Source: Anaerotruncus colihominis (GTDB lineage: Bacteria > Bacillota > Clostridia > Oscillospirales > Ruminococcaceae). Taken from it: 64,000 nucleotides of DNA. This document shows, piece after piece, positions 15,222-64,000 of the stretch (position 1 is the first letter of the stretch; each line of letters opens with the position of its first letter). The notes below the pieces were generated by a model, which did not search any database, was not told the origin of the DNA, and was given only the letters and a program-made list of their open reading frames with translations. Where the stretch lies: NCBI GenBank assembly GCA_025146135.1, contig CP102255.1, positions 186,001 to 250,000 on the forward strand, written 5' to 3'. Both the position numbers and the translations under genes were made by a program.

Positions 15222-15222
15222 A

Positions 15223-16302: not shown

Positions 16303-16320
16303 CGTATTCTGTTATATAAT
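16292..16320 (+). promoter_or_regulatory. Sigma-A promoter of the deoR-type regulator
   Basis: TTGATT, 17-bp spacer, TATAAT on the plus strand, about 260 bases before the regulator start. One operator-like repeat overlaps the -35 box, suggesting autoregulation. Confidence 0.7.
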
Positions 16321-17364: not shown

Positions 17365-17395
17365 TTTAAAAACCATATTCATGGAGGGAACCAGT

Positions 17396-18061: not shown

Positions 18062-18106
18062 GGCTTGTTTGAAAATAGACGGCAATTTTAATTTCTCAAA
18101 CAAACC
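18061..18106. repeat. Small palindromic repeat, copy B
   Basis: Starts at the last base of the deoC stop codon with GGGCTTGTTTGA and ends TCAAACAAACC. It is homologous to the reverse complement of copy A at 10630-10674. Confidence 0.6.
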
Positions 18107-18138
18107 TTTGAACAAGATGTTCAAAAGGAGGAACCTGG

Positions 18139-49034: not shown

Positions 49035-49079
49035 TACGTGGCCGCGCCGATGAAAAAAGATGGTATGGAGGAATTGTCA

Positions 49080-50144: not shown

Positions 50145-50157
50145 GCGGAGGCGCGCA

Positions 50158-51207
50158 ATGAGGTTTGAAAAAAAGGCGCTGGCGGCACTGGAGCGGTGCT
50201 ATGCCGTCAGCACGCTTTTCATCCGGGGGAAAAAGCATTTTGTCGTCGCCTCCGAAAAGGATTTTCCGTGCCTGCTGCTCGACGAGCACGGCGCGTTTGT
50301 CGAACAGGTCTGGCCGGGCGAGCCGGGCGGGACCATGTCGCTGGTGCCCTCGGAGACAGGCGACGGCAGCTTTCTGGCGACGTGGCAGTTTTATTCGCCC
50401 AACGATTCCAAACAGGCGCGGATTGTCCGCGCCGCGCCGCGCCCGGGCGGCGGATGGGCGGTCGCGACGCTCGCGCGCCTGCCGCATGTCCACCGCTTCG
50501 ATGTGCTCCGGCGCGGCGGCGTGTCCTATATGATCGCCTGCACCATCTGCTCTGGACGCGATTATAAGGACGATTGGAGCCACCCGGGCAAGGTGTATGC
50601 CTGCGCGCTGCCGGACGATCTGTCCGCTGCCGGCCAGGCGCATCCGCTGGCGTTTGAGACGCTTTCCGAGGGGATGCTCAAAAATCACGGCTACCTGCGC
50701 TGTCATAAAAATGGCGCGCCTGCAGCGCTTGTGACGTGCGAAAGCGGCGTCTACCGCTATACGCCGCCAGCGGCGCCAGGCGGCGCGTGGGAGGTGGAGC
50801 ATCTGCTTGAGGAGCCGGTCAGCGACGTCTGCCTGGTCGATTTTGACGGCGACGGCGTGGAGGAAATGGTTACGATCGGGCCGTTTCACGGCGACACGCT
50901 TCAAATTTATAAGCGCGACGGAGGCGTGTATCGCAAGATCTATACCCATCCGAAGCCGCTGCCGTTCGCGCACGCTATCTGGGGCGGGCTGCTCTGCGGC
51001 CGGCCGGCCGCGGTCATCGGCTGCCGCGGCGGCGCGCGGGAGCTTTGTTGTTTTACAGGCTCGGAATCCGACGGCTTTCACTGCCAGGTGATCGACAGCG
51101 GTACAGGCGCCGCCAATGTCCTGCACGACACAGTGGACGGCCGGGAGGTTCTCTTGGCCGCCAATCGCGAGATCGGAGAGGTGGCGCTTTACACAGCCGC
51201 CGGTTAG
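50158..51207 (+). CDS. Predicted beta-propeller (VCBS/FG-GAP-like) protein
   Basis: 349 residues, no signal peptide or membrane segment. Several blade-like repeats are visible, including VCLVDFDGDGVEEMVTIGPF (a DxDxDG calcium-loop motif of FG-GAP/VCBS blades) and repeats beginning GKKHFVVA, GVSYMIAC and GREVLLAA. Function is not known to me. It is the last gene of the transporter/kinase/lactonase operon, 13 bases after ulaG, so it likely acts on the same substrate, perhaps as a cytoplasmic isomerase-like or sugar-binding propeller. ATG 50158 sits behind GCGGAGGC. Confidence 0.8.
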   Translation: MRFEKKALAALERCYAVSTLFIRGKKHFVVASEKDFPCLLLDEHGAFVEQVWPGEPGGTMSLVPSETGDGSFLATWQFYSPNDSKQARIVRAAPRPGGGWAVATLARLPHVHRFDVLRRGGVSYMIACTICSGRDYKDDWSHPGKVYACALPDDLSAAGQAHPLAFETLSEGMLKNHGYLRCHKNGAPAALVTCESGVYRYTPPAAPGGAWEVEHLLEEPVSDVCLVDFDGDGVEEMVTIGPFHGDTLQIYKRDGGVYRKIYTHPKPLPFAHAIWGGLLCGRPAAVIGCRGGARELCCFTGSESDGFHCQVIDSGTGAANVLHDTVDGREVLLAANREIGEVALYTAAG

Positions 51208-51217
51208 CGGGAGAGAC

Positions 51218-51264
51218 GGCAAGGCCCCGCGGGAATACTATGTGTATTCCCGCGGGGCCTTGCC
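51218..51264. terminator. Bidirectional terminator, 21-bp perfect stem
   Basis: GGCAAGGCCCCGCGGGAATAC (51218-51238) pairs exactly with 51244-51264 around TATGT. It lies between the converging propeller and LysR genes. No long T-run is present. Confidence 0.75.
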
Positions 51265-51279
51265 GTGCCGCCAGCTTTG

Positions 51280-52236
51280 TCACAGGACCAGCGGCGAGCC
51301 TGTCTGGCGGCGCGGGATACCCGCGCGGAAAAACTCCCGCGCGATCTCCAGTGCGCACTGTTCCGGCTCGGTCAGCTCGCTTTCGCGGTAAAGCGCATAG
51401 ACGCCCACTTCGTTCTTTTCGGCAAGCCCTGTCAGTGGGATCACACGCAGCGCGCCTGATGCTGCGTTCTCATCGCGGATAAAGTTGATGCCGGCTAAAA
51501 AAGCGATCAAATCGCTGTTGAGCACGGAGAGCTTGACAAGCTCGTTGCTTGTGAAGGACGCGACCCGGGGGACGCTGCGGAACGCCTGGGCAAAAACAGA
51601 GTTGACCGAATTTGTAAAATAATAGTGCGGCGTCACCTGACGTTCGTCAGCAAGCTCTGCGATGTCAACGCTCTCGCGGTCCGCATATTTGGAATGCGCG
51701 CTTACGCACAGATAAAAGCTGTCCGAATATAAAAGCTCCATCGTGATGCCGTTTGTACGGGCGATCTGCTCCGCCTGCTTCAATTCACTGCTTTCCCAGT
51801 GGCCGATTGCCAGATTGGCGATTCCTTCAAACATGCTGGCCAGCATTTTGGTGCGCATCGGTTCATGAAAGATCAGAGCCGACTGAGGGCTGCGTATCTG
51901 CATCTGCTGTGTAAGAAAGACGCTCAGATTGCTGTTGGCTGAGGTGGACGCCAGAATATGGACTGTTTGCTCCCGCACACTTGCCTCGCGTTCAATCTCT
52001 GTCATTTCACCATACAAGTCAATGATCTTTTTGGCCAGCCCGAGCACCTTTTCGCCCTCCTGCGTGGCGATCACGCCGCTGTATGTGCGCTGGAAAATCT
52101 GGATGTCAAGCTCATCCTCAATTGATTTGACGATGGCGCTGAGCGTGGTCTGCCCGATATAAAGCTGTTTGGCCGCCAACGATATGGATCTGCGCTTTGC
52201 AATCTCTGTGATGTAGATCAGATGTTCAATTTTCAC
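51280..52236 (-). CDS. LysR-family transcriptional regulator
   Basis: 318 residues. The winged HTH occupies residues 1-60 (HLIYITEIAKRRSISLAAKQL, GQTTLSAIVKSIEDELDIQIF) and an effector-binding domain follows. The GTG at 52236 is preceded by AAAGGGGAAGC; longer in-frame extensions read through the leader and would add an unrelated N-terminus. It is on the same strand as, and downstream of, the carboxylate operon, separated by a terminator. By position it is the best candidate activator of that operon. Confidence 0.88.
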   Translation of the reverse strand: MKIEHLIYITEIAKRRSISLAAKQLYIGQTTLSAIVKSIEDELDIQIFQRTYSGVIATQEGEKVLGLAKKIIDLYGEMTEIEREASVREQTVHILASTSANSNLSVFLTQQMQIRSPQSALIFHEPMRTKMLASMFEGIANLAIGHWESSELKQAEQIARTNGITMELLYSDSFYLCVSAHSKYADRESVDIAELADERQVTPHYYFTNSVNSVFAQAFRSVPRVASFTSNELVKLSVLNSDLIAFLAGINFIRDENAASGALRVIPLTGLAEKNEVGVYALYRESELTEPEQCALEIAREFFRAGIPRRQTGSPLVL

Positions 52237-52554
52237 CGCAATGCTTCCCCTTTCACAGCAATTCTTTCCCCGATAAGCCTTGATGTATTTATGGTGCACC
52301 TCCTGTATATGCCTGTTGCAGCACAGCGACAAGCCCATTTGAACTTGTGTGCCGCAAAGCGTCGGTAAAACCGGCAAGGCCGGTTTTGTCTGTGGTGCGG
52401 CATACGCAATCCGCTGCAAAGCAGCGGCCGCCGCCGAATGGCGGCCGCGAACGGCAAAGTCATTTTCCTTGGGCATATTGTAACATAAACGGCGTTCGAT
52501 TTTACAGGATAAATCCATTCTGGAAATGTGCTTAAAAAGTCGAAATTTATCGAA
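52237..52554 (-). promoter_or_regulatory. Leader and promoter region of the LysR gene
   Basis: An extended -10 (TGTTACAAT, minus strand, -10 at 52477-52482) would start a leader of about 230 bases. The leader contains hairpins GTAAAACCGGC/GCCGGTTTTGTC-like and a GC-rich GCGGCCGCC repeat, and a strong AGGAGGTG near 52300 with no obvious start codon after it apart from the GTG inside it. Confidence 0.45.
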
Positions 52555-52556
52555 AA

Positions 52557-52591
52557 TGCAGGGACAGCCTTGGATAAAGGCTGTCCCTGCA
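52557..52591 (-). terminator. Terminator after the carboxylate transporter
   Basis: TGCAGGGACAGCCTT pairs with AAGGCTGTCCCTGCA (15 bp, loop of 5), flanked by A/T-rich DNA. Confidence 0.8.
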
Positions 52592-52616
52592 AAATAAAAA
52601 GGGTTTAAGATGGGTT

Positions 52617-54104
52617 TCAGACGATTGCGTTTGCCACAACCAGGGTCGGGATGGCGACGAGCAGCGTCAGGGCCATGGAGAAGCACAGAACTTTGTAGAT
52701 CTCCTTGGAATCCATCCATTCGGTGTTGGAATGGATGATCGCTGCGGGAGCAGAAGCGCCGGGGAGAATTAGCCCCATGTTGACAACGTAGATCAGCGCG
52801 ATACCAACGACGACGGGATTGGCTCCGGTCGGCGCCAAAAAAGGCGTGACCATTGGGATCAACAGCGCGCCGAAACCGATATTGCTGCCGATGTTGGTCA
52901 ACAGCGCGGACAGCAGGATGACAATCAGCAGGACGCCGATGGGGCCTTTGCCTACAAACAGGGGGCCAAGGGCAGTACTGGCAAAGGCCAGCAGGCCGCT
53001 TTGCTCGGAGATCACCGCGCTTGCCACCGCCATGGTTGCGCCGACCATGAGGATAACCTCCCAGCGCATGCTAAAGGCGGCGACATCAAAGAATTCAATC
53101 AGCGGCTGGCGCTTTTTGTTGAGCGGGATCAGGCACAGCGCAATGGCGCCGATGCCGTAAATACCGGCCGTGGACAGGGTGTTGTTGAAAAACTCATAGA
53201 TGAACGAGGACGACGGCACAATGGAGGCGAGCAGGATGACGCCGATGACAACCGCGTTAACGACCAGGACGATCGTTTGCCGCTTGTTCATATGCGCGTA
53301 TTCGCTCTTGAGCGACTGTGGGTCAAAGTCACGCAGTTTGGAGAAATCGGTCTTAAAGACATATTTCATGGCCAGCGTGTAAAGCGTGATGGTGCCGAAG
53401 GTGATGATCGCGCCGACCGCCATAAAGACGGCGAAATTGATCTCAATGCCCGCAGCTTCGCCATACTGCATGACCAGGCTGTACTGCCAGCTTCGGAACG
53501 GCACGACCGCGCCGCCCATCATAAAGCTGAGAACCAGTCCGATCAGGCTCAGGGTGACGTACTTATCCCCTCGCTTATATCCGGTCATACGGTAGACGCC
53601 GTACAGAATGGTCCAGCCAAGGAAGATCATCGCGACGGAGTTGATGATGATGCACACAAAGGTAAACGCCAGGAAATAAGCATAGGTGAACACCATCGGC
53701 CGCCCGCGGAAACACTTGCGGGAGATGATCCAGCGCGCGACAAACTCCGCCACGCCGTAATACTGCATCGCGCCCGTGACCAGATAGGCCATGATGCTCT
53801 GGAATACGACCGGGTGCCCCATGCTGGCCGCGATCGCTTCATTGATGGTGCAGTACCCGCTCAGGCCGAGTGCGATGATTGCGGCGATGGACGGCCATGT
53901 GACATCGCAGACCGTAAAAAGATAAACCATGCCTAAAAAGATGCCGAGCAGCTTCATGCCAAGGGGGGTGAGCGGCTCAATAGCCGGCAGGAAGCCAAAG
54001 CCAAAGATCAGCGCCAGGCCGATGATCGAATTGATAAAATAGCCCGGCTTAAACGGTTTGTATTCCTGCTGTGCGGGATGCACAAAGTTGGTCATTTCTG
54101 CCAT
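52617..54104 (-). CDS. SLC13/DASS-type carboxylate transporter
   Basis: 495 residues with about 11-13 membrane segments. The arrangement of GMVYLFTVCDVTWPSIAAIIALGLSG, ITLYTLAMKY loop, LTNIGSNIGFGALLIPMVTPFL and a C-terminal NMGLILPGASAPAAIIHSN resembles the divalent-anion/sodium symporter family; the SNIGFGALLIPM and LPGASAPAA stretches are the repeated anion-binding loops. It probably imports a di- or tricarboxylate. It is the last gene of the operon, 137 bases after the ferredoxin gene. ATG 54104 has an AGGAGG-like site upstream. Confidence 0.82.
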   Translation of the reverse strand: MAEMTNFVHPAQQEYKPFKPGYFINSIIGLALIFGFGFLPAIEPLTPLGMKLLGIFLGMVYLFTVCDVTWPSIAAIIALGLSGYCTINEAIAASMGHPVVFQSIMAYLVTGAMQYYGVAEFVARWIISRKCFRGRPMVFTYAYFLAFTFVCIIINSVAMIFLGWTILYGVYRMTGYKRGDKYVTLSLIGLVLSFMMGGAVVPFRSWQYSLVMQYGEAAGIEINFAVFMAVGAIITFGTITLYTLAMKYVFKTDFSKLRDFDPQSLKSEYAHMNKRQTIVLVVNAVVIGVILLASIVPSSSFIYEFFNNTLSTAGIYGIGAIALCLIPLNKKRQPLIEFFDVAAFSMRWEVILMVGATMAVASAVISEQSGLLAFASTALGPLFVGKGPIGVLLIVILLSALLTNIGSNIGFGALLIPMVTPFLAPTGANPVVVGIALIYVVNMGLILPGASAPAAIIHSNTEWMDSKEIYKVLCFSMALTLLVAIPTLVVANAIV

Positions 54105-54241
54105 ACCTGTTTTCCTCCTCGTTCGTTCTCAGTTTGCCTTTCTGTCAGCCGTATTCTTAACGGTATGGTGCGGCCTGCCAATTTGGGCGGCGCGCCGCGC
54201 TGTGAATACAGGCCTGTTATCTGGAACCCGGCCCGGCGCGC

Positions 54242-54760
54242 TTATTCCATGATCCGAAGGGTCCGAACCAGCGCGCCGGCCGCTTTTTCGCCGCTTTTTT
54301 CACTGAACTGCCGCTCTGTCATGCATTCAAGCGCGCCGAAGGAGCATGCCCGCACACATGCCGGCTTCAGGCCGTTTTGAAGCCGCAGGTAGCATCCGTC
54401 GCATTTGACCATTTTTCCATCTGAGGGCCGGTAGCGCGGCGCGCCGAACGGACAGGCCATCGCGCAGCTTTTGCAGCCGATACAATTGTGATTGTCATAA
54501 ATGGTCATCCCTGTTTTTGGATCTTTTTTGATGCACCCGACCGGACACGCCGCGATACACGGCGCATCCGCGCAGTGGTTGCAGGCGGACGAGAGGTAAG
54601 CGCAGTAAAGCCCGCCGTCTTCGTCAAGCTCCAGGTCAAAGGTCCTGCGGTAGCTTTCCTCGCGCGCCTGCACATCGATGTCGTTTTGATCCATGCAGGC
54701 GACCGCACACGCCGAGCACGCGCAGCATTTGTCCGGATCGAACACAATGACCGATTTCAT
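54242..54760 (-). CDS. Four-cluster ferredoxin-type electron-transfer subunit (DmsB-like)
   Basis: 172 residues with four 4Fe-4S motifs: CCACSACAVAC, CNHCADAPCIAAC, CIGCKSCAMAC and CDGC..KPACVRAC. This is the pattern of the iron-sulfur subunit of molybdopterin oxidoreductases. ATG 54760 overlaps the stop of the molybdopterin subunit as ATGA, so the pair is translated together. No membrane anchor gene is present, so the complex is likely soluble, with the FAD protein upstream as a possible NAD(P)H partner. Confidence 0.9.
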   Translation of the reverse strand: MKSVIVFDPDKCCACSACAVACMDQNDIDVQAREESYRRTFDLELDEDGGLYCAYLSSACNHCADAPCIAACPVGCIKKDPKTGMTIYDNHNCIGCKSCAMACPFGAPRYRPSDGKMVKCDGCYLRLQNGLKPACVRACSFGALECMTERQFSEKSGEKAAGALVRTLRIME

Positions 54761-56910
54761 TCTCCCACCCCCGAAAGCTTTCTGATATTGCAGCGGGCGC
54801 CCTTGAAGCCCGGATAGCCGGAATACGGATCGAGATGCTTTTCCCCGATGAGCAGATTGACGTTCGCTTCGGTGTAGCCGTGGACCATGAAAATCTGCCC
54901 GCGTTTGATCTTGCGGGTAAGCTTGGCTTTTACACGGATTTCGCCGTGACGGTTGTAAAGCGCCACATCGTCCCCCTCCGCAATGCCGAGCGCGGCGGCG
55001 TCCTCGCGGTTGATTTCGCAGCACGGGTCGGGGCGCAGGCTGCGCGCCCAGGGGACTTCGTGCAGGCGCGAGTGAATTGTGTTCGGCACACGCACGCCCG
55101 TCGAGAGCAAAAACGGATAGTCGCGGCGCATATCGTCGCTGTTTTCATCGGCCAGCGGATCGGAGTAGACCGGCAGCGGTTCAAGCCCGCAGTCCTTTGT
55201 AAAGCGCGCCAGCGTTTCCGAATAGAACTCAAATTTCCCGGTTGGCGTCTTGCAGCCCTTGGCCAGGTATTGTCCGGGCTGAACCGGCTTTGCGGCGGGC
55301 ACGGGAACCGGCATGTCGTGTTTTTTCAAGTCGGCGACCGTCAGGCCGCAGCCGTCGATGATCCAGTCGATGCACGCCTCATACCCCTTTTCAAGCATCT
55401 CGTCCCCGAGCTTCATCGAGCGCGCCAGCTCGCAGAGGATATCGGTGTCCGGTTTGGACTCGTACAGTGGTTCGATCACCGGCTTTGTCAGCACCGCATA
55501 GCCGCCCTGGTAGGCTTTGAATTCGCTGCGCTCCAGCGAGGAGCACGACGGCAGAACGATATCGGCGTATTTGGCGGTCTGGCTCATGAACATGTCGGCG
55601 TCGACGAAAAAGTCGAGCTGTTTAATCGCCTCAAGCAGCTTATCCGTCGCCGGGAACATCTTGACGTTCATACCAAGCCCAAAGATCGCCTTTACCGGGT
55701 ACGGCGTGCCCTCGATGATCTGCCGCGCCAGGTCCATCGCCTGGAACTCGTCGCACATCAGATCCCACACCGGGAACTTTCCTTCGGCGATCCGCCGCTG
55801 CCCCTCGGGCTTTTTGCAGGTGTAAAATTCGTGCTCGCGCGTTTTAAAACCGGCGGGCTTATGCAGATAGGTCGGCGGATTCGGGAAGTTGCCGCCCGGC
55901 TGGTCGAAGTTGCCGGTCAGGGCGGACAGGCACAGGATTGCGCGGAACGCCTGGAAGCCGTTGATGAAATGGACCATTGTCGAGGCGGACTGGTTGATCG
56001 CCGCCGGGCCGTTCGTCGCGAAGATGCGCGTGGCCTCCATAATACCGGCCGGGTCAAGACCGCAGATGGAAGCGACTTTTTCAAGGCCGAACTGCTTGAC
56101 ATACTGTGCGTACTGCTCGTAGCCATGCGTATATTTTTTGATGAAGTCCATGTCGGCCCAGCCGTTTTCAATGATGATCTTAGCCATACCGAGCGCGAGC
56201 GCGCCGTCGGTGCCGGGGTTGATCTGCAAATGGATGTCCGCCAGGTTTTTGACGGCGGGCGTGATGCGCGGGTCGACAATGATGACCTTGCCTCCGCGCT
56301 CCTTGAGGGCGCGCACACCCGCTATGGAAAGATGGCTCGAATAGTAGCCGCTGAACGCCCATCCAAGGAAGGTGTTGGCGCGGCCGGTGTCGGGACCGGC
56401 GGGCGCGCCGCTTGTGACCATGCCGGCGACGACGCTCGCCTGGTTGCAGGTGCTGTCGTCGGTGCCGTAGTTGATCGAGCCGAACGAATAGGCGAACCTG
56501 TGAAACAGCGGGCGGTACCATTTGCAGTAGCCGCTGAAAAACGCGACCGCCTGCGGGCCATACTGCGCCTTGACCGCGTTGAGTTTTTCGCCGATGATTT
56601 TATATGCTTCTTCCCAACTGACCGGCTCGAATTTGCCCTCGCCGCGCTCTCCAACGCGGCGCAGCGGCGTGCGGATGCGGTCGGCACGGTAAACGTACTG
56701 CCGGTTGTTGACGCCCTTCGAACAGATTTTCCCGCGGTTGTACGGATGGTCCGGCGTGCCCTCCACCTTTAAAATAACGCCATCCTTCACATAGCAGTCA
56801 AGCCCGCAGTGGTGGCCCGGACTGCAAATCGCACACAGGGAATGCTTGATTTCAATGCCGGTCCTTTCGCCGGGGATTTTCGCCTTGAGCAGTCTTTCAA
56901 GCTCTGTCAT
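54757..56910 (-). CDS. Molybdopterin-dependent oxidoreductase, catalytic subunit
   Basis: 717 residues of the DMSO-reductase family. The N-terminal 4Fe-4S motif has C26, C29, C35 or C39 and C63 (GKICSKG). C155 in DDSTCNQAS is a candidate Mo/W ligand. GWAFSGYYSS, VIIVDPRITPAVKNLADIHLQI, PGTDGALALGMAKIII and the C-terminal molybdopterin dinucleotide domain (LLSTGVRVPNTIHSRL, GYTEANVN) are in order. There is no Tat signal, so it is cytoplasmic. It forms a unit with the four-cluster ferredoxin and the FAD oxidoreductase. The reaction is unknown. Confidence 0.9.
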   Translation of the reverse strand: MTELERLLKAKIPGERTGIEIKHSLCAICSPGHHCGLDCYVKDGVILKVEGTPDHPYNRGKICSKGVNNRQYVYRADRIRTPLRRVGERGEGKFEPVSWEEAYKIIGEKLNAVKAQYGPQAVAFFSGYCKWYRPLFHRFAYSFGSINYGTDDSTCNQASVVAGMVTSGAPAGPDTGRANTFLGWAFSGYYSSHLSIAGVRALKERGGKVIIVDPRITPAVKNLADIHLQINPGTDGALALGMAKIIIENGWADMDFIKKYTHGYEQYAQYVKQFGLEKVASICGLDPAGIMEATRIFATNGPAAINQSASTMVHFINGFQAFRAILCLSALTGNFDQPGGNFPNPPTYLHKPAGFKTREHEFYTCKKPEGQRRIAEGKFPVWDLMCDEFQAMDLARQIIEGTPYPVKAIFGLGMNVKMFPATDKLLEAIKQLDFFVDADMFMSQTAKYADIVLPSCSSLERSEFKAYQGGYAVLTKPVIEPLYESKPDTDILCELARSMKLGDEMLEKGYEACIDWIIDGCGLTVADLKKHDMPVPVPAAKPVQPGQYLAKGCKTPTGKFEFYSETLARFTKDCGLEPLPVYSDPLADENSDDMRRDYPFLLSTGVRVPNTIHSRLHEVPWARSLRPDPCCEINREDAAALGIAEGDDVALYNRHGEIRVKAKLTRKIKRGQIFMVHGYTEANVNLLIGEKHLDPYSGYPGFKGARCNIRKLSGVGE

Positions 56911-58177
56911 TTCCCGCCCTCCTCATAAACGCAATGAACGATTCCGGGATGCCGCCTGCAAGCAGGCGGCAGATCGCGGCGCGGTCCCAGATGGGTCCGC
57001 TGCACAGCAGGGATTTGATAAAGCCGTTTTTAAGCGCCCCGCTGCTGTCCGCGCGGCCGAGCAGGTTGATGCACTTGACGCCGGATCCGTCCCGCGCGGC
57101 CTTGATATAGTATGGGCCGCCGCTGTTTTCATAATAGTCGTCCTGCTCGCCGCACAGGTGGACGTCGCCCATGCTTATGAAATCGACGTCCATAAAATGA
57201 CTGATGTTTTGTACTATGTTAAAATCAAACTTCGCCTGCCCGCCGGCCATATTTTCGCCGGCGGCGCGCCCCTGAAGCCCCGCGTTCATCCACAGGCCCA
57301 CGACGCGCTGCGTGCCGGACTGAAGCTCGAAGCTTTCGCAGCAGTCGCCCGCCGCGTAAATACCCGGCGCGCTTGTGCGCATGGTATGGTCGACAAGCAC
57401 GCCGCGGTTGATCTCAATGCCGCTGTCTTTCAAAAACGCCAAATTTGTGCGCGTGCCGATGCAGACCAGCACGATATCCGCCGGAAAGCTGCGTCCGTCC
57501 TTCATCACGCCGCACAGCCGGCCGTCCTGCTCCTGGATTTGTGAAAGCAGCGCGTTAAACGCGAGCGACACGCCCTTTTGCTCCAGGCGCGCCTGGATGC
57601 GCTGCGCCGTCGACTGGAAGGCGGCCAGCGGGAACATCCAGCCGGCGCCGTCGACCATTGTCGTTTTGACGCCGGCGGCGCACAGCAGCTCCACCAGCTT
57701 GATGCCCGTCATCGAAGCGCCCACCACAAGCGCCGTGCGGATCGGCTGGCCGGCGAGCGCCCGTTTGAGCCGTTCGGCGTCGGCGGCCGTGCGCATGGGC
57801 ATGACGCCGGGCAGGTCATGCCCCGGGATCGGCGGCACGAACGCCGAAGCGCCGGTGGAAATCAGGATTTTATCATAAGGGCCGGCTTCCCGGCCGCCCG
57901 CGACAAGCGTGCGCCTTTTGGCGTCGAGGCCCGTCACGGGCTGGCCCCCATGGAAGCGGATGGAAAGCTGTTCCGCAATTTGCGGCAGCGTCCCGAACGG
58001 GAACATACCCTCATAATGAAGCGCGCCCTTTGTATAATAGGTGGTCAGCATCGGGTTGGACGGCGCAAGCCCGACGTCAGAAAAGACGTCGATCACGCCG
58101 CTTTCGTCCCGCCCCCGGATGGCGCGCGCGGCCTGATAGCCCGCGCAGCCGAATCCGATGATCGCGTAGCTGGACAC
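56897..58177 (-). CDS. FAD-dependent pyridine nucleotide-disulfide-type oxidoreductase
   Basis: 426 residues: FAD-binding GFGCAGYQAARAI at the N-terminus, TYYTKGAL, ILISTGASAFVPPIPG, the NAD(P)-binding ALVVGASMTGIKLVELL, and a second FAD motif SAPGIYAAGDCCES. It resembles the NirB/rubredoxin-reductase type oxidoreductases. The stop overlaps the molybdopterin gene start by 14 bases. It could pass electrons between NAD(P)H and the Mo/Fe-S unit; that is inference from gene order. Confidence 0.88.
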   Translation of the reverse strand: MSSYAIIGFGCAGYQAARAIRGRDESGVIDVFSDVGLAPSNPMLTTYYTKGALHYEGMFPFGTLPQIAEQLSIRFHGGQPVTGLDAKRRTLVAGGREAGPYDKILISTGASAFVPPIPGHDLPGVMPMRTAADAERLKRALAGQPIRTALVVGASMTGIKLVELLCAAGVKTTMVDGAGWMFPLAAFQSTAQRIQARLEQKGVSLAFNALLSQIQEQDGRLCGVMKDGRSFPADIVLVCIGTRTNLAFLKDSGIEINRGVLVDHTMRTSAPGIYAAGDCCESFELQSGTQRVVGLWMNAGLQGRAAGENMAGGQAKFDFNIVQNISHFMDVDFISMGDVHLCGEQDDYYENSGGPYYIKAARDGSGVKCINLLGRADSSGALKNGFIKSLLCSGPIWDRAAICRLLAGGIPESFIAFMRRAGNDRA

Positions 58178-58200
58178 GTGTTCACCCCCTTGCCGGTGGC

Positions 58201-59613
58201 TTAATAAAGAAATTCGTGCAGCCTGGAAATGTCGTCGCAGTCCTCGATGTGGAGCAGGGCGTCAAGCGCGCGCTCCATGCGTTCGCCGTCGAGCACGGGG
58301 GAGGCCTGGATACGGAACCGGTCGGCGAACTGCTCGCGGCTCATCATATTGGCCGGGTGGCCGAGCTGGCAGTCGAGCGACGCGGAGTAGCTGCGGCCGT
58401 CCTTGAGATTGATCGTGACCGTCTTGCGCGGGAACGAACCCTGCTGGAACATCTTAAAGCCAACGCCCATCGCGTCGCGATCGGAATCCCCAGGCAGCAC
58501 GCGCTGCGCCAGGGAGATGACGCTCGGGTTCTGGAGCATCGCGGGAGAATACCAATGCGCGCCGGGATGGCGGTCGTGAATCAGCGCGGAGATAACGTAC
58601 GGCGTGCTGAACTGCGCGTGCGTGAGCGAGCGGAAGCCTTCGTCGGGCGGCGTGTCCATGCGGCCCTCCTTTGGCGGGTCAACAATGATGTCGCGGATGT
58701 CCCCGGGCTTGACGTCGTGCTCCGTAACAAGGTCATACGCAATTTCCACCGGCGTCTGCACCCACATGTTCGCGGGCCAGTGTTTGAGCAGCGTCGTCAT
58801 GATCAGCCAACGCTCGCCGAGCTCCTTTGTATACCACTCGGGGCGCGGTTCGTCCGTGATGTGCGCTTCGTAATCGGCCGGGTTGTCAAGCGCGTTGAGG
58901 CAGCCTTTGACGCCCTTTTCCACCAGTTCGGCGATCATGACGCCTTCCCGGGCGCGCAGGCCGTGCTCATAGTGATAGAAATCGGACATGCAGAATTCAT
59001 GGAAACTCGTCGGCAGCGTGCTGCACGCAGCGCCAAGTCCGAGCGCCTGATTGACCTGCTCACTTGTAAAGCCTTTGAGCTTCACGGCTGGGACAATGCA
59101 GCCGAACAGCTGCCAGCTTGTAAGCCCCCAACCCTTGGTGCGCTGCCGCGTCAGCGAGGGCTGGACCACCATCGCGATGCGCTGGTAAACCTCATATGCG
59201 GCGACGATCGCCGTGAGCAGCTCCCTGCCGCCTTTTTTAAGCGATTCGGCCATGACCCAGGCGACCGGCACGATGCCGGCCGAGGGGTGTCCGGTCCAGG
59301 CGGTGTCCTCCCAGTCGAGCAGATCGGCGAGCGTGCCGTTCTGGAGCGCGGCGCACGCGGGGGAAAGGCGGTCGCCTGTACCCCATCCGGTCGCCGTACC
59401 GCCGACGCCGCCGTTTGCATCGCGGGCAGTTTCAATGATCTTGCGGGCCTCAGGGGACGCTTTGGCCGCGAGCGCTACGCCCACGGTTTGCAGCATGACC
59501 ATTTTGGCCCGTTCCAATACCTCCGGGGGGATATCCTCATAGCGAAGGTTCGCCGTAAAATCGCTGAGTATCTTTGTATACTGCGTCGTGCAGGTTCGGT
59601 TGTTTTCGAGCAT
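58201..59613 (-). CDS. MmgE/PrpD-family protein, full length
   Basis: 470 residues, the usual family length. The all-helical domain 1 holds VMLQTVGVALAAKASPEARK, WGTGDRLSPACAALQNGTLADLLDWEDT and AYEVYQRIA; the alpha/beta domain 2 holds DIRDIIVDPPKEGRM, AQFSTPYVISALIHDR and MSREQFADRF. Known family members are 2-methylcitrate dehydratase, cis-aconitate decarboxylase and iminodisuccinate epimerase. It sits between the shortened paralogue and the FAD oxidoreductase gene. The substrate here is unknown. Confidence 0.9.
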   Translation of the reverse strand: MLENNRTCTTQYTKILSDFTANLRYEDIPPEVLERAKMVMLQTVGVALAAKASPEARKIIETARDANGGVGGTATGWGTGDRLSPACAALQNGTLADLLDWEDTAWTGHPSAGIVPVAWVMAESLKKGGRELLTAIVAAYEVYQRIAMVVQPSLTRQRTKGWGLTSWQLFGCIVPAVKLKGFTSEQVNQALGLGAACSTLPTSFHEFCMSDFYHYEHGLRAREGVMIAELVEKGVKGCLNALDNPADYEAHITDEPRPEWYTKELGERWLIMTTLLKHWPANMWVQTPVEIAYDLVTEHDVKPGDIRDIIVDPPKEGRMDTPPDEGFRSLTHAQFSTPYVISALIHDRHPGAHWYSPAMLQNPSVISLAQRVLPGDSDRDAMGVGFKMFQQGSFPRKTVTINLKDGRSYSASLDCQLGHPANMMSREQFADRFRIQASPVLDGERMERALDALLHIEDCDDISRLHEFLY

Positions 59614-59655
59614 CTCTGTTTCCTCCGGTCTATCAATTTGTTTGGCGGCGCGATT

Positions 59656-60630
59656 TCACAGTGTCAGCAGCTTTCCAATGGACGAGAGGTCCTCGCAGTA
59701 TTCGATCTCGAACAGCGCAGTTAATATCTGTCCGATCCTCTCCACGGAAAAGACGGAGGAGGCGCGCTTTTGGAAGTCGTTGGCTGTTTCGCCGGCGCTT
59801 TTTTCGGGGACGGCTTCCAGGATGCGGTAAACCTTGCCAACATCCTGCGTATATTGTTCCCCGTGTTCCTCGCCGGTAAAATGCAGCGGATAAGCCGAAG
59901 GGTCGTCGAACGCGTCCTCAAGGTTTTCTGTGCCGCGCAGCGCGCAGCAGGCGAGCGTCACGGCTGTCTGGCAGCGAAAGCCGTATTCGAACGCGAGCGT
60001 GTCGGCGCCGTCCGATTCATAGTGACTCGCCGGGATCACGCTGCATACGGTGCCCATGCTCAGGCCCTTGTTGATTTGAAGCGTATCAAGACCTGTCAGA
60101 CGCAGCGCCGGCACAAGCGCCGCGAAAAGCTGCCAGCTCGCACGGCCATACCCTTTTTCGGCGCGCTCCTTCGCCGTGGGCTGCACGGCCGCGGCCACGC
60201 GTTCATAAACCTCAAACGCGAGAATCAGCGATGTAAGCAGCTCCCTGCCGGATCTTTTTTTCGCCTCCGCAACCGCCCAGGCGGTCGGGACCGCCGCGCA
60301 GGCGGGCATACCGAAGGGGTTTTGCTCCCATCCGCCGGCGCAGGCGGCCGTGCCGTTGGCCATCGCCGCGTTTTCCATGCTCAGGCGCTTGCCTGTGCCC
60401 CAGACGGCACACGTCCCATCCGGGCCGCCGCAGGCGCACTCCGCCAGGGCAAGCGCCTTTTTGGCCGCTTCGCTTTCGACGGACGCGAGCGCCGCGCCGA
60501 TCGTCTCGATCAGGATCTGCTTGGCGCGCTCGACAACGTTTGCCGGAAAATCTTCAAACCGCGCTGAATTTATGTATTCAGATAAAACCTGGGTGCGATT
60601 TGTATTAATTTCATGGTGATTAAATCCCAT
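59656..60630 (-). CDS. MmgE/PrpD-family protein lacking most of domain 2
   Basis: 324 residues, about 145 shorter than its neighbour. The helical domain is kept (AKQILIETIGAALASVESEA, WGTGKRLSMENAAMANGTAACAGGWEQNP, AFEVYERVAAAV, GYGRASWQLFAALVPAL), as is the C-terminal end (SVERIGQILTALFEIEYCEDLSSI). The alpha/beta domain between is almost absent and the frame is clean. ATG 60630 is at good spacing after GGAGA. It may be a structural or regulatory partner of the full-length protein. First gene of the operon, behind candidate LysR boxes. Confidence 0.85.
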   Translation of the reverse strand: MGFNHHEINTNRTQVLSEYINSARFEDFPANVVERAKQILIETIGAALASVESEAAKKALALAECACGGPDGTCAVWGTGKRLSMENAAMANGTAACAGGWEQNPFGMPACAAVPTAWAVAEAKKRSGRELLTSLILAFEVYERVAAAVQPTAKERAEKGYGRASWQLFAALVPALRLTGLDTLQINKGLSMGTVCSVIPASHYESDGADTLAFEYGFRCQTAVTLACCALRGTENLEDAFDDPSAYPLHFTGEEHGEQYTQDVGKVYRILEAVPEKSAGETANDFQKRASSVFSVERIGQILTALFEIEYCEDLSSIGKLLTL

Positions 60631-60745
60631 TGCCATTCTCCGTTCCATCAAGAAATTTGCTGCGTAATTGATGAGAGACGCTTTCTTTTGTAAAAGCCTA
60701 TGGTCAGTATACTTCGGCAGATGACCAACCGTCCAATTCATGAAT

Positions 60746-60787
60746 TTGTTGGCGGCCAACAAAAAAAACGATAATCCACCCGATTAT
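60746..60787. promoter_or_regulatory. Two palindromes, candidate LysR operators
   Basis: TTGTTGG-CGG-CCAACAA (60746-60762) and ATAATC-N5-GATTAT (60771-60787) lie between the divergent mmgE/PrpD operon and the racemase gene, the expected place for a LysR-type operator. No clear minus-strand promoter is seen; the best match (TTGGAC-N19-TATACT) is weak. The rest of 60631-61030 holds no gene. Confidence 0.5.
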
Positions 60788-60938
60788 TCCCTGAACAATA
60801 AAAATATGGAAACGGGTAAAACTGATTTGAGATTTTAGTTATGCAAATCGTTGAATTTTCAGGGCCGGACTTTGTAAATGTTTCTTGACAGCGGCAGGGC
60901 TAGTCGATATTTTGTTGACAGTCTACAGAATTTTCGAT

Positions 60939-60967
60939 TAGACAGGTGGTTTTATGAATTTTATAAT
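60939..60967 (+). promoter_or_regulatory. Promoter of the racemase/isomerase gene
   Basis: TAGACA, 17-bp spacer, TATAAT. A second pair, TTGACA-N17-TATTTT at 60885-60913, lies upstream. Confidence 0.6.
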
Positions 60968-61030
60968 AAGGAAAACAGCGCGGTTGGATTTGTTTGGGAA
61001 ATCCACCGGATGGAAAGGATTGATCAACCT

Positions 61031-61753
61031 ATGATGACATGGCGCGGATACATTGGACTCATCTGCCCGAGCATGGCGGTCACAACGGAGGACGATTTTA
61101 ATCGGAACATGCCCGAAGGCGTCGGCGTGTGTTCCATGCACATCTACTTCGAACCGATCGGGCCTACCCCGGAAAACCTGCGCGAGATGGTAAAGGGGCT
61201 TGAGGGCGGCTGCAAAATATTCGACGAGCCGCGCGCGCGGCCGGACGTGATTATCTTTGGCTGTACATCCGGCAGCATGATCAACGGCTTTACCTTCGAC
61301 AAGGAGTGCATCAAGCTGATCGAGGATAAAACCGGCGTGCGCGGCCTGACGACAAGCACCGCCGTGCTCGAAGCGTTTGAGACGCTCGGCGTCAGCCGTC
61401 CGGCTGTCATCACGCCGTATCCTGAGGCCACCAACGTGATGGAAAAGGCGTTTTTGGAGGCCAACGGCCTGACCGTCACCAATATCGTCGATATGAACAA
61501 GCAGCGTCTGTGGGTCCCGCTGATTGAACCGACCTATGTCTATCAGCAGATCAAAAAGATGGACTTAAACGGCGCCGACTCCATCTTTATCAGCTGCACG
61601 GGGCTGAACATCCTCAGCATGATCCCCATGATCGAGGAGGATTTCGGCCTGCCTGTCATCACCAGCAACCAGGCCAGTATCTGGGCTTCGCTGCGTTATG
61701 CGCGCATCAGTGCGAAGAACCCGAAGCTCGGCAAATTGATGCGCGAGTTTTGA
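61031..61753 (+). CDS. Asp/Glu racemase / maleate isomerase-family protein
   Basis: 240 residues from ATG 61031 (ATG 61010 is a possible longer start). Two cysteines, C78 in IIFGCTSGSM and C189 in IFISCTGLNI, are the catalytic pair of the Asp/Glu racemase, arylmalonate decarboxylase and maleate cis-trans isomerase superfamily. GYIGLICPSMAVTTEDDF at the start matches the maleate isomerase branch. It stands opposite to the MmgE/PrpD operon across shared palindromes, so it likely isomerises or racemises a carboxylate of the same pathway. Confidence 0.85.
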   Translation: MMTWRGYIGLICPSMAVTTEDDFNRNMPEGVGVCSMHIYFEPIGPTPENLREMVKGLEGGCKIFDEPRARPDVIIFGCTSGSMINGFTFDKECIKLIEDKTGVRGLTTSTAVLEAFETLGVSRPAVITPYPEATNVMEKAFLEANGLTVTNIVDMNKQRLWVPLIEPTYVYQQIKKMDLNGADSIFISCTGLNILSMIPMIEEDFGLPVITSNQASIWASLRYARISAKNPKLGKLMREF

Positions 61754-61763
61754 GCCTTGTTAA

Positions 61764-61811
61764 AAAAAGGAATGGGTCCCCCGCATTGGGCGGGAGGACC
61801 CATTCCTTTTT
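61764..61811. terminator. Bidirectional terminator
   Basis: AAAAAGGAATGGGTCC (61764-61779) pairs with GGACCCATTCCTTTTT (61796-61811), serving the converging racemase and octopine-dehydrogenase-family genes. Confidence 0.88.
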
Positions 61812-61826
61812 ATATGGCGCTGTTGA

Positions 61827-62888
61827 TCAGATGCGCTTATAGATCTCCTCGAGCGTCATCTCCGGCGGGAAGCCGAGGTTTTCCAGCGTGCGGCCATCCT
61901 TGATATAATCTTCGCCGCACAGAACGCCGGCAATCTTTAAAAATGCTTCCAATACAGGCGCCTCAAGCCCCAGGCGCCTGGCGGCCGACAGCGCAAACGC
62001 GCCGCCGCAGGAGGCATCCTCCCGCAGATAGCGGTGTGTGACGCTGTCCGGCCCGGACAGTGTACGGAATACATCGAGCTGCGGGTTTTCTTTGACATTC
62101 ACAATAGCTTCGAACATGTCCATCGGGTTGGAGTGCTCCTGAAAGCCCATCGCTTCGATGATAGCCAGGCGTTCCTCCCGGATTTTTCCCGCGCAGCGGA
62201 TCGACGCGGGCGTAAAGCCCTCCTGGAACAGAATAAAGTTGTCGCGCATCGCCTCTATGCGCGTGGCGGAAAGCACCGTCGTGGCCAGATGCATCACGAC
62301 GTTGTCGGCATGGATCGCCGCCTCGAATACGTTTTTGACCGGCACAAAGTCCCAAACCCCCTTGAGCGCCTCGATGACGCGCGGCGTATCGCGGGCGGGC
62401 AGGGACGCGATCTTTTTCGGGCGCAGCGGCAGGCCGACCGTCACCTCAGCGTCCTGCGTCAGCCGGCAGGGACAGAGGTTGCCCTCCTGTTCGGTCAGGG
62501 TGACTTTTTTTGTCATATGAAGCTCATCAAATACCCGGCGGAATATGAACGCTCCCAGATTGCCGGGGACGATCAGGATATGCTGGCCGTCCTGCAAATA
62601 CGGCGCGATTTTGCGCGCGATCTCCTCATGGCGCGGCGACATTACATGGACTGCAATGAGCTGCGCGTCCGCAACAGCCTTTTCGATGTCGGTTGTGGCG
62701 GTTTCTATCCGTCCAATCGCATGGACCTTCCCGCGCAGCAGGATACCGCCGTTGGCTTCGATCTGTTTAAAACGTCCGGCGAACCGTTCGCCGTCGCAGA
62801 GCGTGACGCGAAAGCCCTTATCAGCATAGATCGCCGCAGCGGCGTGGCCGGTGGCCCCGCCGCCGATCACTGTGATTTTTTCGATCAA
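61827..62888 (-). CDS. NAD/NADP octopine/nopaline dehydrogenase-family protein
   Basis: 353 residues. The N-terminus KITVIGGGATGHAAAAIYADKGF is a Rossmann GxGxxG motif, and the C-terminal part holds HLATTVLSATRIEAMRDN and SVTHRYLREDASCGGAFALS. Opine dehydrogenases reductively condense an amino acid with an oxo acid or run in reverse. The TTG at 62888 follows AGAGGTG by about six bases; an upstream in-frame ATG at 62960 would lie at the transcription start. It ends facing the racemase gene. An opine or iminodiacid substrate would fit the neighbouring MmgE/PrpD genes. Confidence 0.82.
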   Translation of the reverse strand: MIEKITVIGGGATGHAAAAIYADKGFRVTLCDGERFAGRFKQIEANGGILLRGKVHAIGRIETATTDIEKAVADAQLIAVHVMSPRHEEIARKIAPYLQDGQHILIVPGNLGAFIFRRVFDELHMTKKVTLTEQEGNLCPCRLTQDAEVTVGLPLRPKKIASLPARDTPRVIEALKGVWDFVPVKNVFEAAIHADNVVMHLATTVLSATRIEAMRDNFILFQEGFTPASIRCAGKIREERLAIIEAMGFQEHSNPMDMFEAIVNVKENPQLDVFRTLSGPDSVTHRYLREDASCGGAFALSAARRLGLEAPVLEAFLKIAGVLCGEDYIKDGRTLENLGFPPEMTLEEIYKRI

Positions 62889-62963
62889 TTGGGCACCTCT
62901 TTTCCTGATTTTTAAAGGCGCTGCCGGCAGGCAGCTTCGCGAAAGCGCCGTCTCATCCATTTC

Positions 62964-62992
62964 ATTGTACGGCCTGTGCGTTTGACAGTCAA
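62964..62992 (-). promoter_or_regulatory. Promoter of the octopine-dehydrogenase-family gene
   Basis: TTGACT, 17-bp spacer, TACAAT on the minus strand; leader of about 70 bases to the TTG start. The AT-rich 62993-63256 shows no gene; TATAAT at 63167-63172 may be a plus-strand -10 for the cdaR-like gene but has no good -35. Confidence 0.8.
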
Positions 62993-63256
62993 ATCGTTTT
63001 AATTGTTGGGGTCAGCAAAAAATTCGGCGGATGCGCGCCGCCTTCCTGCCGGTGCTGTTCGATTTTACAGAAAATGAAGATATAATTTGTATGATATATT
63101 CTTTGTAATATAATATATGTATATATTTTAGTACAAAGAACATATCGGCCGCACGGATGTTGTTAGTATAATAATTGCAGAGCGGTTGTCATACTGCTGT
63201 GCAGCCGGCGCGTCCGCTCCGCAGATATGGACATATGGGAAAAAGGATGTGTTGTT

Positions 63257-63349
63257 ATGAAAACAGCCGGATGGACGGCTTGTTACGCCGGTATGCCCAT
63301 TATATTGACGGACTGGGATGAAGATACTTTTGAGGAGCCGGTACGATGA
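63257..63349 (+). CDS. Small upstream ORF (30 residues) coupled to the CdaR-type gene
   Basis: ATG 63257 follows AAAAGGATG; the frame encodes a short peptide beginning MKTAGWTACYAGMP and ending DTFEEPVR. Its TGA overlaps the next ATG as ATGA. It may be a leader peptide that controls translation of the regulator, or a small protein. No family recognised. Confidence 0.5.
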   Translation: MKTAGWTACYAGMPIILTDWDEDTFEEPVR

Positions 63350-64000
63350 GCGGTTTTCAGCTTTCAACTCAAAGCGCCCAGCGCATTGTCGCTGAGATCG
63401 GCGGCATCGTGGGGCAAAACATCAATATGATGGACGCGCAGGGCTACATCATTGCAAGCACCGATCCGGCGCGCATCGGCTTTTTACACGAGGGCGCGCG
63501 CCAGATTATTGAAGAACGGCTGCCGGAACTATATATCCGCGCGGAGGAGGCGACTGCCACAGCGCGCACCGGGCTTAACCTGCCGATTACGCACCGCGGC
63601 GATATTGTCGGCGTCATCGGGATTACCGGCGAGTACGGACAGGTGATCGGATATGGGCAGGTTGTCAAGAAGATGACCGAGATTTTAATCAGGGAGAGCA
63701 CGGAGCAGGACGACAAACGCCTTGACCTGCGCATGCGCAGCCGGTTTCTGGAGAACTGGGTGCTTGCTGGCGGCCCTGTGCAGGGGCAGGCGCTTGCGGA
63801 ACGCGGCCTTGCTCTCGGCATCGATATCACCATCCCACGGCGCGTCATGGTGATCAGTGCGCAGGAACTGGAGCATTATACCGACAATATGGCCGGCCAG
63901 AAGCTGATTGAAAATGTGGAAAATGCGGTTGCCGCGATTGTCGAAGCTGAAAACGGCAACATTATCCTGCGAAATGCAGCCCGTCAGATTTTGCTGGTGC
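63346..64000 (+). CDS. CdaR-family sugar-diacid regulator, partial
   Basis: 218 codons before the window ends. The start SAQRIVAEIGGIVGQNINMMDAQG and IIASTDPARIGFLHEGARQII, then GLNLPITHRGDIVGVIGITG, is the sugar-diacid recognition domain of CdaR; the linker and PucR-type part should follow beyond the edge. CdaR proteins activate diacid utilisation genes in other bacteria. GAGGAG lies eight bases before the ATG. Its targets here are unknown. Confidence 0.85.
   Translation, partial: MSGFQLSTQSAQRIVAEIGGIVGQNINMMDAQGYIIASTDPARIGFLHEGARQIIEERLPELYIRAEEATATARTGLNLPITHRGDIVGVIGITGEYGQVIGYGQVVKKMTEILIRESTEQDDKRLDLRMRSRFLENWVLAGGPVQGQALAERGLALGIDITIPRRVMVISAQELEHYTDNMAGQKLIENVENAVAAIVEAENGNIILRNAARQILLV

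Follow-up and report, generated by a model that had tools for sequence, protein, structure and literature searches.

Background

Iminodisuccinate (IDS) epimerase is an enzyme for an iminodiacid. In the route of Agrobacterium tumefaciens BY6 (see PMC7347537), this enzyme of the MmgE/PrpD fold takes part in iminodiacid catabolism together with a C-N lyase. The same two-domain fold is found in cis-aconitate decarboxylase (CAD) and 2-methylcitrate dehydratase. Other described systems share single components with the locus analyzed here. PsrA, acetylene hydratase and formate dehydrogenase (FDH) belong to the DMSO-reductase superfamily and, like the Mo protein of this locus, have a 4Fe-4S domain and a Cys as ligand candidate; in FDHs the residue after the metal-ligand Cys or Sec is His. 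EutA, arylmalonate decarboxylase and maleate isomerase offer the fold family and the two cysteines of the EutA-type protein of the locus, arylmalonate decarboxylase itself having a single Cys and a Gly at the first site. N-(1-D-carboxylethyl)-L-norvaline dehydrogenase (CENDH; 1bg6) and the octopine and nopaline dehydrogenases are distant relatives (129.6 bits for 1bg6) of its opine dehydrogenase, with which they share PF02317 and a His/Asp pair.

The window is a stretch of 64,000 nucleotides from Anaerotruncus colihominis, in which positions 51280-62888 hold a well-bounded cluster that is repeatedly conserved in Clostridia. Its gene families are familiar, and their combination is without assigned function: a soluble-looking Mo/W complex is combined in it with opine-type enzymes and with MmgE proteins whose catalytic residues are altered. 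Such a gene set belonged to no described pathway known to the sequence-only reading of this DNA, and no description of it was found in the open-access full-text literature (PMC). We tentatively favor, at somewhat less than even confidence, the view that the locus encodes a conserved anaerobic catabolism of an imported, probably N-containing di- or tricarboxylate, either an iminodiacid or a compound converted into one. Identification of the substrate would give a function to a clade of the DMSO-reductase superfamily and could uncover a new anaerobic reaction.

Results and discussion

Organization of the locus

All nine genes that had been reported from the sequence are present as ORFs at 51280-62888, and all of them score above the Pfam cut-off for a family of the expected kind. 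The LysR-family regulator (51280-52236, minus strand; PF00126/PF03466) has its start placed by the position of the HTH, probably at a GTG at 52236, and the longer ORF reaching 52719 is an over-extension. An SLC13/CitMHS-type di-/tricarboxylate transporter of 495 aa (52617-54104, minus strand; PF03600, 61.7 bits) is followed on its 3' side by a terminator-like hairpin with a 15-bp stem (52557-52591, minus strand), which is a consensus match only; terminator-like sites total 17 against a mean of 15.0 (sd 4.2) in shuffles and are thus not above them. Promoter-like sites were found by consensus scan on both strands of the divergent region between MmgE1 and EutA (60637-61009), at 60939-60967 on the plus strand (11/12) and at 60812-60783 on the minus strand (9/12); 12 such sites lie in 51000-63400, where shuffles give a mean of 5.7 (sd 2.5). 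Probable starts were revised to 60636 for MmgE1, 61010 for EutA and 62888 (TTG) for the opine dehydrogenase. CdaR, at 63346, was rejected as a regulator of the locus and left out of it because it is the first gene of a separate run that also contains genes for a GntP permease and a glycerate kinase.

Conservation among relatives

The gene set is co-conserved. Twelve close loci were defined by Mo enzymes of 65-67% identity, with L024-L028 (22-32% identity) excluded and with L020 and G1023 (L059), which have the same arrangement, counted once; MmgE, EutA, the octopine/opine-dehydrogenase-family protein (OcDH), FAD, Mo and ferredoxin genes stand together in 10 of them. Of the two loci without the full set, L017 ends at a contig edge and L021 is a true exception, in which Mo and ferredoxin are kept, FAD is present only as a C-terminal piece and the rest of the set is missing. 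The six genes also occur together in G184 (L030), and a LysR match is present in 7 of the 12 close loci. Among 21 distant Mo matches, 19 loci were examined (L049 and L051 were left out) and none has MmgE, EutA, OcDH or OCD, an absence that is weaker in some of them because their contigs are short (e.g. L036, L048, L058, L060, L064, L071). Since the set is together in 10/12 close loci against 0/19 distant ones, the arrangement is beyond chance. In a tree that included 15 of the 19 distant proteins, the 15 close Mo proteins (window, the 12 loci, L029 and L030) form one clade with branch support of 100/100. When MmgEb was used as a query against a phylum sample of 398 genomes, only 2 genomes gave more than 40% identity, and the Mo enzyme is present in both.

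Two architectures can be distinguished. Type A has two EutA genes, two full MmgE genes and an extra OCD-family gene, the last in 9/9 type A loci; type B, that of the window, has one EutA and one MmgE without the lid domain. The OCD protein of L023, a type A locus, matches PF02423 (146 bits), and its score against the SbnB-type model TIGR03944 is 117.6 bits, below the cut-off of 326.9. No OCD gene lies within 10 kb in L014, nor was any OCD relative detected in the window's genome at E 1e-5, an empty result that by itself shows little. The window transporter is 35-39% identical to that of type A loci. Record titles of the carriers name Oscillibacter, Flavonifractor, Clostridiales bacterium 1_7_47_FAA and uncultured Oscillospiraceae. 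Among the carriers of type A that bear no MAG label are Oscillibacter sp. PC13 (L015) and Flavonifractor sp. An92 (L016). Besides OCD, the genes that recur downstream of related loci are MobB, MoeA and MobA, and these downstream genes gave no clue to the substrate; relatives of MmgE, Mo, EutA and OcDH on plasmids (27-38% identity among the matches listed; six regions inspected) stand in mixed contexts that likewise pointed to no substrate. A second copy of the locus in the same genome is decayed and therefore the trait may be dispensable.

The Mo/FAD/ferredoxin complex

The redox part of the locus is an operon-like run on the minus strand, composed of a four-cluster (DmsB-like) ferredoxin subunit (54242-54757; Fer4_11 and others; TIGR02951 at 126 bits, cut-off 214), a molybdopterin (Mo or W) oxidoreductase of the DMSO-reductase superfamily with 717 aa (54757-56910; PF04879, PF00384, PF01568) and an NAD(P)H-using type of FAD oxidoreductase, akin to PadH, NirB and NorW (56897-58177; PF07992, 163 bits), whose gene shares 14 bases with the Mo gene and whose best NCBIfam match is NF045765 (PadH; 176 bits, below the cut-off of 475). 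Cys26, 29, 35, 63 and 155 of the Mo protein are invariant in 20/20 aligned rows, Cys155 being the metal-ligand candidate. The sequence-only reading had proposed a soluble, NAD(P)H-linked Mo/W enzyme working on an imported carboxylate or iminodiacid; the absence of an export signal (by eye), the PadH/NirB-type flavoprotein and the SLC13-type importer agree with the soluble enzyme, its electron partner and the import, and the iminodiacid part has gained some support. The genome of the window carries MoaC and MoeA as well as relatives of MobA, MobB and MoeA, and has a weak match only for MoaA.

The Mo protein stays below the cut-offs of 25/25 NCBIfam models among the matches listed. Its best solved match is 2vpw (E 2.2e-66), followed by the acetylene hydratase 2e7z (E 6.9e-65), and against the thiosulfate/polysulfide reductase model PhsA (PRK15488) it reaches 285.6 bits with a cut-off of 694. 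In contrast to PsrA, acetylene hydratase and FDH, its gene has a PadH-like FAD gene at its side, and the neighboring genes include no membrane subunit. The best NCBIfam match of all is the FDH alpha model TIGR01591, and in three distant relatives (L058, L063, L064) the residue following the ligand Cys is His, so that one might suppose an ordinary NAD-dependent FDH adjoining unrelated acid-metabolism genes by chance; we consider this extremely unlikely, as the score of 305.8 bits falls short of the 666-bit cut-off, His follows the ligand Cys in 0/15 close rows and the Mo clade tracks the MmgE/EutA/OcDH set.

The neighbors of some next-nearest Mo relatives (48-53%) raise the question of an aromatic or heteroaromatic (di)carboxylate, whose ring the Mo complex would reduce, hydroxylate or dehydroxylate while the other enzymes handle a ring-opened imino acid: these relatives adjoin a tryptophanase-family lyase and UbiD (L056), UbiD (L062) and amidohydrolase_2 (L061). 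However, all three fall outside the close Mo clade, and relatives of the UbiD, UbiX and lyase of L056 were not found in 12 set loci at E 1e-5, so that such a substrate appears unlikely.

The MmgE pair

MmgE2 (58201-59613, minus strand) is a full-length MmgE/PrpD protein, with PF03972 at 146 bits and the PF19305 lid at 65 bits, and the fold of its AF2 model (pLDDT 79.7) agrees, being that of IDS epimerase and CAD; by TM-score the model is nearest to 2hp3 (IDS epimerase; TMq 0.80, rmsd 3.4), and by E-value CAD comes first (TMq up to 0.77). In the tree MmgE2 is closest to MmgEb of type A loci, a placement that is weakly supported. MmgE1 (59656-60636, minus strand; 326 aa) is a lidless paralogue consisting of the helical domain only: it matches PF03972, PF19305 being matched in MmgE2 alone, its AF2 model is helical (pLDDT 85.7), the alignment likewise shows no C-terminal lid, and Met replaces the His of the HPS motif. 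Lidless paralogues occur in three genomes, those of the window, L013 and L014.

The active site of CAD and IDS epimerase is composed of an Asp, H103, H159, K207 and H277 in CAD numbering (in part after PMC7347537). In an alignment of three MmgE2, 6/10 MmgEb and 6/10 MmgEa proteins, K207 is replaced by Asp (Asp211) and H277 by Asn (Asn282) in 15/15 rows, the K207 column being less sure because its loop is poorly modeled (pLDDT <50 at 200-212). MmgE2 keeps the active-site Asp and H103, the His of the HPS motif; at the H159 position the window and six MmgEb have Lys, L013 and L014 have His, and six MmgEa have a deletion. With K207 and H277 changed, a canonical CAD or IDS epimerase was rejected, and so was a PrpD 2-methylcitrate dehydratase (NF042438, 42.6 bits with a cut-off of 950; TIGR02330, 28 bits with a cut-off of 458). 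The locus thus differs from CAD and 2-methylcitrate dehydratase in Asp211, Asn282, the low PrpD scores and the lidless MmgE1, and from the BY6 route in having an opine dehydrogenase where that route has a C-N lyase, changed equivalents of K207 and H277, and an added Mo complex. To judge from these residues, the MmgE proteins seem to form a subfamily that has not been described before. Their reaction need not be epimerization, because two residues of the CAD/IDS-epimerase site, the Lys and one His, are replaced.

The EutA-type enzyme and the opine dehydrogenase

The EutA/maleate-isomerase/Asp-Glu-racemase-type enzyme (61010-61753, plus strand) matches PF17645 at 89.5 bits and falls slightly under the cut-off of 31 for PF01177 (29.3 bits). 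Cys is present in both half-sites in 21/21 aligned rows, as in two-cysteine racemases and maleate isomerases, and these cysteines are probably of catalytic type. EutA proper (TIGR02990, 108.9 bits; cut-off 318) and arylmalonate decarboxylase proper (NF052327, 79.9 bits; cut-off 225; Cys at both sites) were rejected; unlike those enzymes, the EutA-type protein, far under both model cut-offs, has paralogues that are paired in type A loci.

Together with the other acid-handling proteins, this enzyme could also serve the catabolism of an N-free carboxylate, in which MmgE would (de)hydrate or decarboxylate, EutA would be a maleate-type cis-trans isomerase, OcDH would reduce or oxidize a 2-oxo or 2-hydroxy acid and the Mo enzyme would hydroxylate, dehydroxylate or hydrate. 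SLC13/CitMHS carriers transport carboxylates, solved MmgE/PrpD relatives mostly act on citrate-like acids, EutA matches the maleate isomerase structures 2xec and 4fq5, and among solved relatives of the Mo enzyme acetylene hydratase ranks second. It is nevertheless hard to find a place in such a route for both an opine dehydrogenase and an OCD-family enzyme, and OcDH keeps the opine-dehydrogenase dyad; we regard N-free catabolism as a rather unlikely, if serious, alternative.

OcDH (61827-62888, minus strand; PF02317 at 81.6 bits, cut-off 30) carries a Gly-rich NAD(P) motif and matches 1bg6 with E 1.4e-36 and 129.6 bits. Its His and Asp, kept in 13/13 rows, align with the catalytic H202 and D297 of 1bg6, and OcDH keeps an opine-dehydrogenase dyad of catalytic type. 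Metallophore pathways include opine dehydrogenases, racemases and SbnB-type OCD enzymes, a likeness that would suit biosynthesis of an opine-type metallophore, not catabolism. We judge this very unlikely indeed: the recurring neighbor clusters include neither a nicotianamine-synthase or NRPS/NIS gene nor one for an exporter, the carrier belongs to an importer family, and OcDH is of PF02317, presumably a family other than that of staphylopine dehydrogenase.

A proposed pathway

In the favored catabolism of an N-containing acid, for which an N-(carboxyalkyl)amino acid is a candidate iminodiacid type, the SLC13-type carrier would bring the acid into the cell. A soluble three-part enzyme would then carry out one redox step, the FAD subunit exchanging electrons with NAD(P)H, the four-cluster ferredoxin passing them on and the pterin Mo/W subunit working on the substrate. 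The two-cysteine EutA and the MmgE pair would shift protons at carbons adjoining carboxylates (epimerizing, isomerizing or (de)hydrating) and give an isomer accepted by the following enzyme. Finally the opine dehydrogenase, assisted in type A loci by the OCD-family dehydrogenase, would oxidatively cleave the C-N bond to yield an amino acid, a 2-oxo acid and NAD(P)H, which could supply the Mo step. We infer the direction of the reactions, the order of the steps, the nitrogen of the substrate and the assembly of the MmgE and EutA pairs as hetero-oligomers.

A bolder version, which we hold to be very improbable, is an undescribed anaerobic pathway in which the NAD(P)H-linked Mo/W complex acts as a reductase on a heteroaromatic or unsaturated imino-dicarboxylate and yields a cyclic or open iminodiacid, the EutA and MmgE pairs interconvert stereoisomers with the lidless MmgE as partner subunit, and OcDH and OCD open the C-N bond; on chemical grounds, a possible substrate is the dipicolinate of bacterial spores.

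The OcDH and OCD families include enzymes for other substrates, which counts against the iminodiacid. The idea gains some support from the OcDH dyad, the type A OCD gene and the occurrence of OcDH with MmgE in L086. This last locus belongs to a genome (G1001) in which a Mo match is absent at 1e-100; OcDH (37%), a sodium:solute symporter and MmgE (31%) lie there on one 7.8-kb contig, and the link between MmgE and OcDH in it is independent of the Mo gene.

Organization of the locus

The nine genes reported by the sequence-only reading at window positions 51280-62888 are all uninterrupted ORFs and all match named families. According to the ORF coordinates, MmgE1, MmgE2, a PadH/NirB-type FAD oxidoreductase, a molybdopterin (Mo or W) oxidoreductase (the Mo protein), a ferredoxin and an SLC13-type carrier form a single tight run on the minus strand. 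MmgE1 and MmgE2 are spaced by 42 bases and MmgE2 and FAD by 23 bases; the FAD and Mo genes overlap by 14 bases, Mo and ferredoxin by 1 base, and a gap of 137 bases leads from the ferredoxin to the carrier. A terminator-like hairpin (stem 15 bp), a consensus match only, lies 3' of the carrier, with the LysR gene past it. In the gap that separates MmgE1 from the divergent EutA, each strand has promoter-like sites, again consensus matches only. Shuffled sequences gave on average 5.7 (sd 2.5) promoter-like sites where 12 were observed, and 15.0 (sd 4.2) terminator-like sites where 17 were observed. The gene of the octopine-dehydrogenase-family protein (OcDH), whose probable start is TTG at 62888, is convergent with EutA.

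Just outside the locus, window positions 47541-51207 carry three ORFs, among them an FGGY kinase and a UlaG-type L-ascorbate 6-phosphate lactonase (612 bits against a cut-off of 306). A CdaR-type regulator gene heads another run (window 63346-64000 and fetched stretch L031, 1347-7862), in which GntP permease and glycerate kinase genes come next; this run is divergent from OcDH and is a unit of its own for glycerate use.

Conservation of the gene set

The Mo protein was searched for in one genome per species of 84,980 species, a scan whose patterns, built from one protein, recover close relatives only. It returned 17 loci, 12 at 65-67% identity and 5 at 22-32%. The expectation that the genes are co-conserved is borne out: 10/12 close loci combine EutA, MmgE, OcDH, FAD, Mo and ferredoxin, and genome G184 (locus L030), which belongs to the same taxonomic order as the window's genome, has the complete set. 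One of the 12, L017, is on a contig that starts 42 bases ahead of the Mo gene, too short a flank for a judgement; another, L021, retains Mo, ferredoxin and a FAD relative of which only the final 62 residues are present, and is a true exception because the remaining set genes are missing despite 10 kb on the relevant side. Of the distant Mo matches (33-53% identity), 19 of 21 were examined, several of them on short contigs, and MmgE, EutA, OcDH and the OCD/mu-crystallin-family gene (OCD) were found in 0/19. In the tree a 100/100 branch separates the close Mo proteins, 15 in all (from the window, the 12 loci, L030 and L029, the last being a second copy within the window's genome), from the rest. 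The locus is real and conserved, and is most likely catabolic; its composition, gene order, conservation and residues are read directly from sequence.

A query from MmgEb, one of two MmgE paralogue groups, matched 3 genomes of a 398-genome phylum sample at E 1e-45 or better. Two of these, G1023 and the genome of the window, also have the Mo enzyme; the third, G1001, gave a relative at 31% but no match for Mo. One contig of this third genome (L086, 711-7180) carries OcDH (37%), MmgE (31%), a sodium:solute symporter and an ORF that reads by eye as an MFS gene. It has no Mo gene and ties MmgE to OcDH independently of the Mo step.

The sequence-only reading knew of no described pathway with this gene set, and none appears among the open-access titles and abstract openings that were matched; the locus is a new combination of known families.

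Two types of locus and a second copy

Nine loci (L012, L015, L016, L018, L019, L020, L022, L023 and L030), here type A, have EutA and full-length MmgE each as a pair of paralogues, together with an SLC13-type carrier and an OCD gene (PF02423, checked on the L023 protein), and some have MobB, MoeA or MobA downstream. Type B, comprising the window, L013 and L014, has a single EutA and a short MmgE1. The L013 contig stops 883 bases past Mo, and in L014 OCD and SLC13 were not matched within 10 kb on either side. MmgE1 falls on the MmgEa side of the MmgE tree (96/92), MmgE2 is nearest MmgEb by path with a weakly supported placement (86/51), and EutA_a (80/56, weak) and EutA_b (99/99) are distinct paralogue groups, several long branches being flagged in these trees. 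The Mo enzymes of L013 and L014 group with those of the remaining close loci, but their MmgE and EutA are of the window's type B, a disagreement that suggests exchange of the module.

The window's genome has a second, type A-like copy in L029 (G000:C1:2246000-2265999; locus 8695-18396, about 2.255-2.264 Mb). Its OcDH, FAD, Mo and ferredoxin genes are uninterrupted and two LysR genes are present, the carrier and MmgEa are remnants only, MmgEb is shortened at the N terminus, and EutA was not matched in L029: this copy is decayed.

Residues of the enzymes

MmgE2 is full length and is modelled (pLDDT 79.7) with an MmgE/PrpD fold, with cis-aconitate decarboxylase (CAD) as first match by E-value and iminodisuccinate (IDS) epimerase by TM-score (TMq 0.80, rmsd 3.4). 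An alignment of 15 set MmgE proteins was read against CAD; its residues are given here in the usual CAD numbers, one below those of the structure chain. The Asp and the HPS-motif His of CAD are kept in 15/15; Lys207 is matched by Asp211 and His277 by Asn282 in 15/15, the former match being less sure because the Asp211 loop is modelled at pLDDT under 50. At the CAD His159 column, the window's protein shares Lys with the six MmgEb, L013 and L014 have His, and the six MmgEa have a deletion. Some of the roles of these CAD residues are general background. Others are drawn from PMC7347537. MmgE1 (326 aa; helical model, pLDDT 85.7) is without the lid domain and retains the last helices; the HPS His is Met in the window's MmgE1 and still His in L013 and L014. 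MmgE1 may serve as a partner subunit.

OcDH is matched by PF02317 and, among solved structures, by N-(1-D-carboxylethyl)-L-norvaline dehydrogenase (E 1.4e-36); its His and Asp align with H202 and D297, the catalytic residues of that enzyme, in 13/13 rows. EutA-type proteins keep both cysteines in 21/21 rows, as do racemases and maleate isomerase; they score far under the cut-offs of both EutA proper and arylmalonate decarboxylase. The Mo protein belongs to the DMSO-reductase superfamily, its best solved matches being PsrA (2vpw) and acetylene hydratase (2e7z), and is unlikely to be a formate dehydrogenase (305.8, cut-off 666). In the 15 close rows Cys155 is followed by Asn, Ser, Phe or Tyr, and by His in 0/15; His after the ligand Cys is seen in three distant relatives. 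The PadH/NirB-like character of the FAD subunit points to NAD(P)H as a likely partner.

Proposed pathway

In the reading we prefer, the locus serves to break down an imported di- or tricarboxylate that contains nitrogen. EutA and MmgE would act on protons adjacent to carboxylates, OcDH (plus OCD in type A) would split a C-N bond and produce NAD(P)H, and an FAD/ferredoxin/Mo complex would perform one redox step on the acid; the direction and order of these steps, like nitrogen in the substrate and heteromeric pairs, are what we infer. The main rival is a route for a nitrogen-free carboxylate. Counted against the preferred reading are MmgE residues unlike those of IDS epimerase, the decayed state of the second copy, and the failure to find an OCD relative in the window's genome, an empty answer that alone shows little.

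Cofactor genes and distant relatives

MoaC and MoeA are found in the genome above cut-off, together with MobA, MobB and MoeA relatives; the best MoaA match (G000:C1:1451394-1452224, L087) is weak, at 80.5 bits against a cut-off of 284, and contains an in-frame TGA. A xanthine-dehydrogenase-type three-gene run, read by eye, adjoins MoaC (L098, 1921-6270), and the genome therefore probably has a second Mo enzyme family.

In L056 (Mo 53%; 5423-15797), relatives of Mo, ferredoxin and FAD adjoin UbiD and a tryptophanase-family lyase that is under both the TnaA and the tyrosine phenol-lyase cut-offs, with UbiX and a RidA-like gene read by eye; no relative of its UbiD, UbiX or lyase occurs within 12 set loci, and L056 may represent a further, undescribed route for aromatic amino acids. 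Mo adjoins UbiD and a succinate-dehydrogenase-like flavoprotein in L062 (48%), an amidohydrolase_2 in L061 (about 50%) and a CocE-type hydrolase in L058 (43%); TRAP carriers are Pfam-confirmed in L060 and L062 only. Ferredoxin is matched in 12/19 distant loci and FAD in 5/19. Pieces of the Mo module therefore recur next to different genes.
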